DNA of 64,000 nt, from positions 21,130 through 85,129 of the forward strand of contig JAOPWC010000130.1 of NCBI GenBank assembly GCA_025965895.1, given 5' to 3'. Position numbers and translations under genes: made by a program. The stretch comes from Mycobacterium sp. Its GTDB lineage: Bacteria > Actinomycetota > Actinomycetes > Mycobacteriales > Mycobacteriaceae. Below are positions 1,058 through 17,668 of the stretch, in pieces (position 1 is the stretch's first letter; the number at the start of each line of letters is the position of its first letter). The notes below the pieces were generated by a model. The model was given only the letters and a program-made list of their open reading frames with translations. It ran no database searches and was not told the origin of the DNA.

Positions 1058-1070
1058 CGTCTCGACCTCC

Positions 1071-1640: not shown

Positions 1641-2062
1641 AGGAACCGCTCCGCCATGTGCACACCGAGCACGATCAGCGCGGGCACCATCACCGCGAGC
1701 CAGACCACGGCGACCACCCAGAGCATCACGCGTTGGTAGCGGGTGCCCTGCCACCAGAAGTCGATCAGGATGACCCGGATGCCGTTGAGGGCGTGGTAGA
1801 GCACCGCGGCCACCAGCCCGGCTTCCATCAGGCCGACGATGGGTGTCTTGTAGGTCGCGACAACTTCGTTGTAGGCCTGAGGGCTGACGCGGACCAGCGC
1901 CGTGTCAAGCACGTGGACGAACAGGAAGAAGAAGATGGCGGCACCGGTGATGCGGTGGAGCACCCACGACCACATGCCGGGATCGCCGCGGTACAACGTT
2001 TTGCGGGACGCGCGCGGCGCCGCAACCGCCGGCGTTCCCGTCGATGTCGACCTGGTCATCAT
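1637..2062 (-). CDS. sdhC: Succinate dehydrogenase cytochrome b556 subunit
   Basis: Membrane anchor and heme-binding subunit of succinate dehydrogenase, first gene of the operon. The 141-residue protein has the SdhC pattern WSWVLHRITGAAIFFFLF followed by FVHVLDTAL, where the His is a candidate heme ligand, and three membrane segments. The start at 2062 (ATGATG, giving MMTRS) is favoured over the longer track ORF because the family begins here. There is no good Shine-Dalgarno sequence before it; the stop of an upstream micro-ORF overlaps the ATG as ATGA, suggesting translational coupling. Confidence 0.92.
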   Translation of the reverse strand: MMTRSTSTGTPAVAAPRASRKTLYRGDPGMWSWVLHRITGAAIFFFLFVHVLDTALVRVSPQAYNEVVATYKTPIVGLMEAGLVAAVLYHALNGIRVILIDFWWQGTRYQRVMLWVVAVVWLAVMVPALIVLGVHMAERFL

Positions 2063-2091
2063 TGTTGTTTGCTCTTCGCGCAAGCGCTCAT
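2059..2091 (-). CDS. Micro-ORF MSACAKSKQQ overlapping the sdhC start
   Basis: Ten codons encoded by the third repeat copy (2070-2093) plus flanking bases. It has a strong GGAGG five bases before its ATG, whereas sdhC has none, and its TGA overlaps the sdhC ATG as ATGA. This is the arrangement expected of an upstream ORF that delivers ribosomes to sdhC. A single Cys codon is the only resemblance to the cysteine-responsive leader ORFs known in mycobacteria. Confidence 0.55.
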   Translation of the reverse strand: MSACAKSKQQ

Positions 2092-2271
2092 CGCGACCTC
2101 CAACACCGTCGGTGGACTGTCGGGTGGACTCTAAACCCACTCCTGTTCAGCAAACCACCACGGTGCAGCGGTCGCGACCAGCGCAACTGGTCATTTTCCC
2201 GACCTTTCGCCGCCCCGCGCTGATGACGGGAGACGCCCCCAACCCATTCAGATCGCGGAAAGACGGCCACG

Positions 2272-7866: not shown

Positions 7867-7906
7867 CAGATCAGTCACTGCAGATCAGTCACTGCAGATC
7901 AGTCAC
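7867..7906 (+). repeat. 14-bp direct repeat, 2.9 copies
   Basis: CAGATCAGTCACTG is repeated exactly at 7867-7880 and 7881-7894, then for 12 bases at 7895-7906, in the short gap between two secreted-protein genes. It could be a slipped-strand expansion or a regulator site; the spacing between the genes depends on copy number. Confidence 0.85.
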
Positions 7907-17601: not shown

Positions 17602-17623
17602 CCCGTAATCTGAGGATAAGTGA

Positions 17624-17668
17624 CCGACCAGTAACAAACCGACCAGTAACAGACCGACCAGTAACAAG
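17624..17668 (+). repeat. Three 15-bp direct repeats before glpD
   Basis: CCGACCAGTAACAAA, CCGACCAGTAACAGA and CCGACCAGTAACAAG follow one another exactly (17624-17638, 17639-17653, 17654-17668), ending in the AAGGAG ribosome binding site of glpD. Regular spacing and conservation of GACCAGTAAC suggest operator iterons or an expandable leader; no regulator is identified. Confidence 0.9.

Follow-up and report, generated by a model that had tools for sequence, protein, structure and literature searches.

A 32-bp MIRU-like repeat at the sdhC start of a Mycobacterium sp. and its probable coupling to the gene by reinitiation

We analysed a 64,000-nucleotide stretch of Mycobacterium sp. DNA (contig JAOPWC010000130.1; the window hereafter) in which a 10-codon micro-ORF precedes sdhC, and we conclude, with a probability of about 0.8, that this micro-ORF is a copy of a MIRU-like repeat inserted at the sdhC start, that it has taken over the gene's GGAGG and that sdhC is now reached by termination-reinitiation. 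In the proposed course of events a 32-bp repeat unit would have entered exactly at the sdhC start codon, and the original sdhC GGAGG would have stayed in place, where it would now serve the unit's own ATG. The length of the unit, which is 2 modulo 3, would make the micro-ORF TGA overlap the displaced sdhC start. Ribosomes would most likely load at the GGAGG, make 10 residues, stop at TGATG(A) and immediately begin again on sdhC, and such a restart would allow an insertion into a central respiratory operon to be tolerated.

The minus strand of the window carries sdhC (positions 1637–2062; Sdh_cyt, PF01127, E 3e-21), sdhD (1158–1640; Sdh_cyt), whose GTG start overlaps the sdhC stop as GTGA, and sdhA (FAD_binding_2), and a divergent cytidine deaminase gene lies upstream of sdhC. 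Translation of 2091–2059 (minus strand) gives MSACAKSKQQ and a stop, which bears out the 10-codon ORF reported in an earlier note on this DNA. The perfect GGAGG that the note placed before it is present at 2101–2097, 5 nt ahead of the micro-ORF ATG, and the TGA (2061–2059) overlaps the start of sdhC as described there, with two possible start codons, ATG 2062 (ATGA) and ATG 2059 (TGATG). Predicted pairing with the anti-Shine-Dalgarno sequence is −10.5 kcal/mol at the micro-ORF start and only −2.5 kcal/mol at either sdhC ATG, against an average of −3.6 kcal/mol for random windows, so sdhC does lack a Shine-Dalgarno sequence of its own. The first seven micro-ORF codons were also correctly traced to a repeat found before sdhA: the 20-mer ATGAGCGCTTGCGCGAAGAG occurs three times in the window (0 expected), two of them before sdhA, and the 22-bp repeat core GATGAGCGCTTGCGCGAAGAGC (2071–2092, minus strand) consists of the first 21 bases of the micro-ORF and the G that precedes them.

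Comparison with relatives identifies the sdhC start as the target site. The core is absent at sdhC from all 53 distinct relatives examined, and in 46 of them GGAGG or GGGGG lies 3–8 nt, mostly 4–6 nt, before an in-frame sdhC start, whose anti-Shine-Dalgarno energy is −9.5 kcal/mol. A typical leader in these relatives reads ..GCGTTGGAGGNNNNNATGAGTAC.., and that of the window reads GTTGGAGGTCGCG-ATGAGCGCTTGCGCGAAGAGCAAACAACA-ATGATGACC. Because the relatives' GGAGG serves the sdhC start directly, the GGAGG at 2097–2101 is ancestral to sdhC and the micro-ORF start occupies the ancestral sdhC start position, which explains why sdhC has no Shine-Dalgarno sequence now. The best relative with an empty site has about 82% DNA identity and no closer one was found, so the exact length of the insert (29 or 32 bp) is deduced; we infer 32 bp, running from ATG 2091 up to the last base ahead of ATG 2059 (2060–2091, minus strand), which equals the usual tandem period of the repeat. 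In two other species the sdhC leaders (L210, L201) contain different short ORFs (ATGAGCGGCTCGGAAAATGGCTGA; GTGAGTACCCGAACATGA) with the same Shine-Dalgarno sequence and without the core.

The copies before sdhA form a tandem array with a 32-bp period, comprising two full cores and a third, truncated unit. The truncated unit lies at 1133–1151, shortly past the sdhD stop, and the full cores at 1109–1130 and 1077–1098 (all minus strand) begin the micro-ORFs MSACAKSS* at 1129–1103 and MSACAKSS* at 1097–1071. The spacer of these units contains an earlier stop, so the ATGA overlap is not restored between them. Unlike sdhC, sdhA keeps a strong Shine-Dalgarno sequence of its own after the array, a GGAGG at 1066–1070 (minus strand) with a predicted pairing energy of −12.7 kcal/mol. 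Elsewhere in the window a perfect 14-bp tandem repeat (CAGATCAGTCACTG, 2.9 copies, 7867–7906) lies just before the Shine-Dalgarno sequence of a plus-strand gene, and a 15-bp tandem repeat (ACCGACCAGTAACAA, 3 copies, 17623–17667) lies directly before AAGGAG and a GTG start.

The repeat is dispersed, as the earlier note had supposed: a search of the whole genome with its 19-base core at up to 2 mismatches gave 72 matches, against 0 for the reversed control. Of 199 genomes of the genus, 143 contain the core, the largest copy number being about 100, and a control pattern gave 2 matches in all 199 genomes together. Most named carriers belong to Mycolicibacterium or are other mycobacteria. We also found the core in a single genome from outside the genus (G203, of a different family in the order), where assembly contamination is possible. 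A two-unit query had no match in either phage or plasmid collections, and we reject a phage or plasmid origin for the repeat. Copies are single or tandem and many adjoin unrelated genes; the 22-bp core is common to all loci, and a spacer of 8–11 bp is characteristic of each array.

The repeat has a marked orientation relative to its neighbours. Among the 39 arrays of this genome that lie outside genes (statistics that rest on stretches taken around each match), 32 have a same-strand gene upstream and 33 have one downstream, and when other species are pooled with these, 285 of 323 flanking genes are on the repeat's strand. In 18 of the 39 arrays the stop of the upstream gene, the TGA of GATGAG or TGATGAG, overlaps the core ATG, as it does in 52 of 92 arrays of other, mostly named, mycobacteria; part of this figure is automatic, because whatever gene runs in through one of the three frames will reach that TGA. 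For the downstream overlap there is a frame control: the downstream start overlaps the last micro-ORF stop (−1 or +2) in 16 arrays of this genome, against 4 and 1 in the other two frames, and in 49 of 88 arrays elsewhere, against 8 and 2. The sdhC copy overlaps a neighbouring ORF on its downstream side only, because it stands first in its operon. The two ends of an array tend to have the same type of overlap, with 44 ATGA-ATGA, 6 TGATG-TGATG and 9 mixed cases (44/2/7/6, Fisher P = 8e-4, a pooled value that overstates independence since the species share ancestry), and such agreement is expected if insertion duplicates the target junction. About half of the arrays have no overlap on one or both sides; this and the separate Shine-Dalgarno sequence of sdhA mean that coupling is not universal.

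The spacing of units accounts for the way in which overlaps are regenerated. Within arrays of this genome it is 32 bp in 13, 33 in three and 30 in two; elsewhere it is 32 (17 arrays), 33 (7), 35 (2), 31 (2) and 30 (1), and the genus-wide list shows the same preference for 32. Since 32 is 2 modulo 3, each ATG is in frame with the TGA inside the ATGA that follows it, and the ATGA or TGATG overlap is thus restored at each copy unless the spacer has an earlier stop. Distances to start codons, which the note had suggested checking, follow the same rule, the coupled start lying 32 nt from the ATG of the last core in 56 of 82 cases; coupling as defined dictates the modulo here but not the predominance of 32. 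Where the unit is 33 or 30 bp long it is instead read in frame, as in one array of this genome (L017) where two 33-bp units lie in frame at the C-terminal part of the upstream gene (DERLREEPTA repeated). A diverged core copy in the same genome (L038) lies, also in frame, at the N-terminal end of an ORF encoding a DinB-like polymerase. Only a minority of copies have a GGAGG 3–9 nt ahead of the core (4 in this genome and about 60 in 42 of the 199 genomes), and the Shine-Dalgarno takeover seen at sdhC is thus a side case of the repeat family.

The longest chain (L305; G013:C2:92400-94200, 470–1281) consists of 25.4 copies of a 32-bp unit between two genes. Its 25 near-identical units give 25 consecutive micro-ORFs, each MSACAKSRRRR or nearly so, and the chain is unbroken: each TGA overlaps the next ATG, and ATGA joins link it to the upstream stop and the downstream ATG. 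It is conceivable, though we think it doubtful, that repeat arrays act as a translational relay of variable copy number, in which each 32-bp unit adds one termination-reinitiation step and so tunes the downstream gene. Were this true, the single unit at sdhC would set the level of succinate dehydrogenase, and the 25 micro-ORFs in succession between two genes of one species would be its most extended illustration.

Empty sites were also found at two other junctions. At ahpE many relatives read ..GCGCTGATGCTG.., with two genes overlapping as TGATG, and this genome reads GCGCTGATG-AGCGCTTGCGCGAAGAAGAGAGA-GCGCTGATGCTC, a gain of 32 nt with the flank repeated. The ahpE junction is filled in 4 of 20 species, this genome and three others with other versions of the repeat, and the spacers differ among them (L245, L246, L253, L261), which suggests repeated independent insertion at one target. 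At the yfiH-yggS junction several relatives have an ATGA overlap (..GTGTGGATGGAATGACC..), and two units are inserted there in this genome.

These properties resemble those of the mycobacterial interspersed repetitive units (MIRUs), which have been known since 1997 (Supply et al., cited in PMC12548453). This 2025 review, citing Supply et al. (1997), describes MIRUs as mobile, as inserting at start codons, where they are coupled with −4 nt spacing, and as having little effect on genes. Their units are 46–101 bp long and occupy 41 loci in M. tuberculosis H37Rv (PMC3914561). Like MIRUs, the present repeat is multi-copy, dispersed and in places tandem in mycobacteria, and it is oriented as its flanking genes are. 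Its small ORF overlaps neighbouring ORFs by 4 nt in about half of the arrays on each side, well above the other frames, and it lies at start codons or stop-start overlaps that are empty in relatives (sdhC, ahpE and yfiH-yggS). It differs from MIRUs in its unit of 30–35 bp, mostly 32, and in a sequence unlike that of the 77-bp type of slow growers, as judged against a 36-nt stretch. This stretch, which we take to be part of the 77-bp MIRU type and which is supported by a 77-bp tandem spacing in several genomes, is absent from this genome when up to 3 mismatches are allowed and is found in 47 of the 199 genomes. Those 47 have at most 2 copies each of the core of the 32-bp unit, whereas 112 of the other 152 genomes have 3 or more; thus the two types occupy different parts of the genus. 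They have only short blocks in common, such as GATGAG and CGCTTGCG, which are suggestive and too short to claim common descent. In contexts of the 77-bp type, inspected by eye, gene starts follow ..GGCGC-NN-DTGA.

Because its mode agrees with that of MIRUs in all tested features other than unit length and sequence, we call the repeat MIRU-like: it appears to work like a MIRU, which is not to say that it is one. Neither the exact 16-mer nor MIRU-like short repeats outside the tuberculosis complex were found in the literature library searched. The suggestion that the family is uncharacterised therefore holds for the 32-bp sequence type, which was not found described there, and fails for the mode of insertion and coupling, which is that of MIRUs (PMC12548453); we regard the repeat as a new variant of a known mode. 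The repeat is also reminiscent of REP/BIME elements, being short, dispersed and intergenic. It differs from them in its position at stop/start overlaps and in having neither a strong palindrome nor a strong hairpin, with structure in the sdhC leader not beyond chance (z = −0.48).

Taken together, the anatomy and the comparisons lend good support to the earlier proposal of translational coupling carried by a dispersed repeat. What is observed is the repeat with its orientation, its target and empty sites and its frame rule; how it moves, and that the micro-ORF is translated and sdhC reinitiated, is deduced from sequence. By default we read the insert as tolerated and not as a sensor, any regulatory benefit being unproven, and the most economical function would be that of a mobile repeat designed so that its insertion at a start codon does no harm. 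It is improbable that the repeat has, beyond being tolerated, been co-opted as a regulatory leader in which sdhC output is tuned by the micro-ORF or by how many tandem units there are. Its place in the 5′ leader of an operon's first gene, where the micro-ORF start is strong and the sdhC start weak, would suit such a role, and a synthetic analogue, the bicistronic design, is known to shape expression. This design likewise has a strong Shine-Dalgarno sequence and a short ORF whose stop overlaps the start of the target gene; the repeat differs in being natural, in having spread as a repeat, and in being usually fed by the upstream gene and not by a Shine-Dalgarno sequence of its own. Against co-option, the insertion has no counterpart in any of the 53 relatives and so no sign of conservation at sdhC, other copies of the repeat adjoin unrelated genes, and the tail of the peptide is not conserved.

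It is very unlikely that sdhC instead starts upstream, at GTG 2140 or at a TTG within the repeat, the repeat then encoding an N-terminal extension (..DERLREEQTT-MMTRS..). The sdhC frame does stay open as far as the GTG at 2140, which would give 167 aa, and a few other copies (L017 and L038 above) lie in frame inside coding regions. The relatives' leaders weaken this reading, since 46 of 53 have a Shine-Dalgarno sequence directly before the sdhC start and 10 of those 46 have an in-frame stop within 50 nt upstream. A putative −10 box, TAGAGT (2128–2133, minus strand), lies within TTTAGAGTC, which 42 of the 46 relatives whose sdhC start was recognised have kept ahead of the gene; GTG 2140 lies just upstream of the conserved TTAGAGTC of this putative −10, so it would probably fall outside the transcript. 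No Shine-Dalgarno sequence is suitably placed for the TTG within the repeat.

Cys-responsive leader ORFs occur in mycobacteria, and the earlier note had raised Cys sensing, in which scarce charged tRNA-Cys would stall ribosomes in the micro-ORF and alter sdhC expression; we reject it as extremely improbable, because the likeness to these short Cys-containing ORFs upstream of operons comes down to one Cys codon at position 4, which varies (TGC in 27 of 39 arrays of this genome, Arg as CGC/CGG in 9 of those 39 and in 8 of 103 elsewhere, TAC in 2), the tail of the peptide changes from locus to locus and many unrelated genes adjoin. Cys-responsive leaders have conserved Cys codons, usually in a run, and here a single non-conserved codon lies in an ORF that is led by a Shine-Dalgarno sequence, has a stop overlapping the gene and comes from an apparently mobile repeat. 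An RNA structure or riboswitch is rejected as well, as there is no Rfam match and the leader RNA folds no better than shuffles (z = −0.48).

With the micro-ORF read as a tolerated MIRU-like insertion, sdhC would be a clean natural case in which a gene's only Shine-Dalgarno sequence has been taken over by a repeat. More generally, a unit of 2 modulo 3 that regenerates ATGA at both ends would be the rule by which a mobile repeat can enter important operons and leave them unbroken, and the MIRU mode of insertion would extend to a shorter sequence type that is abundant in mycobacteria without the 77-bp type. Gene starts near such repeats are easily misannotated, and the arrays are candidate VNTR typing markers for the species that carry them. 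Those of up to 25 units may offer a direct test of how often ribosomes can reinitiate in succession.
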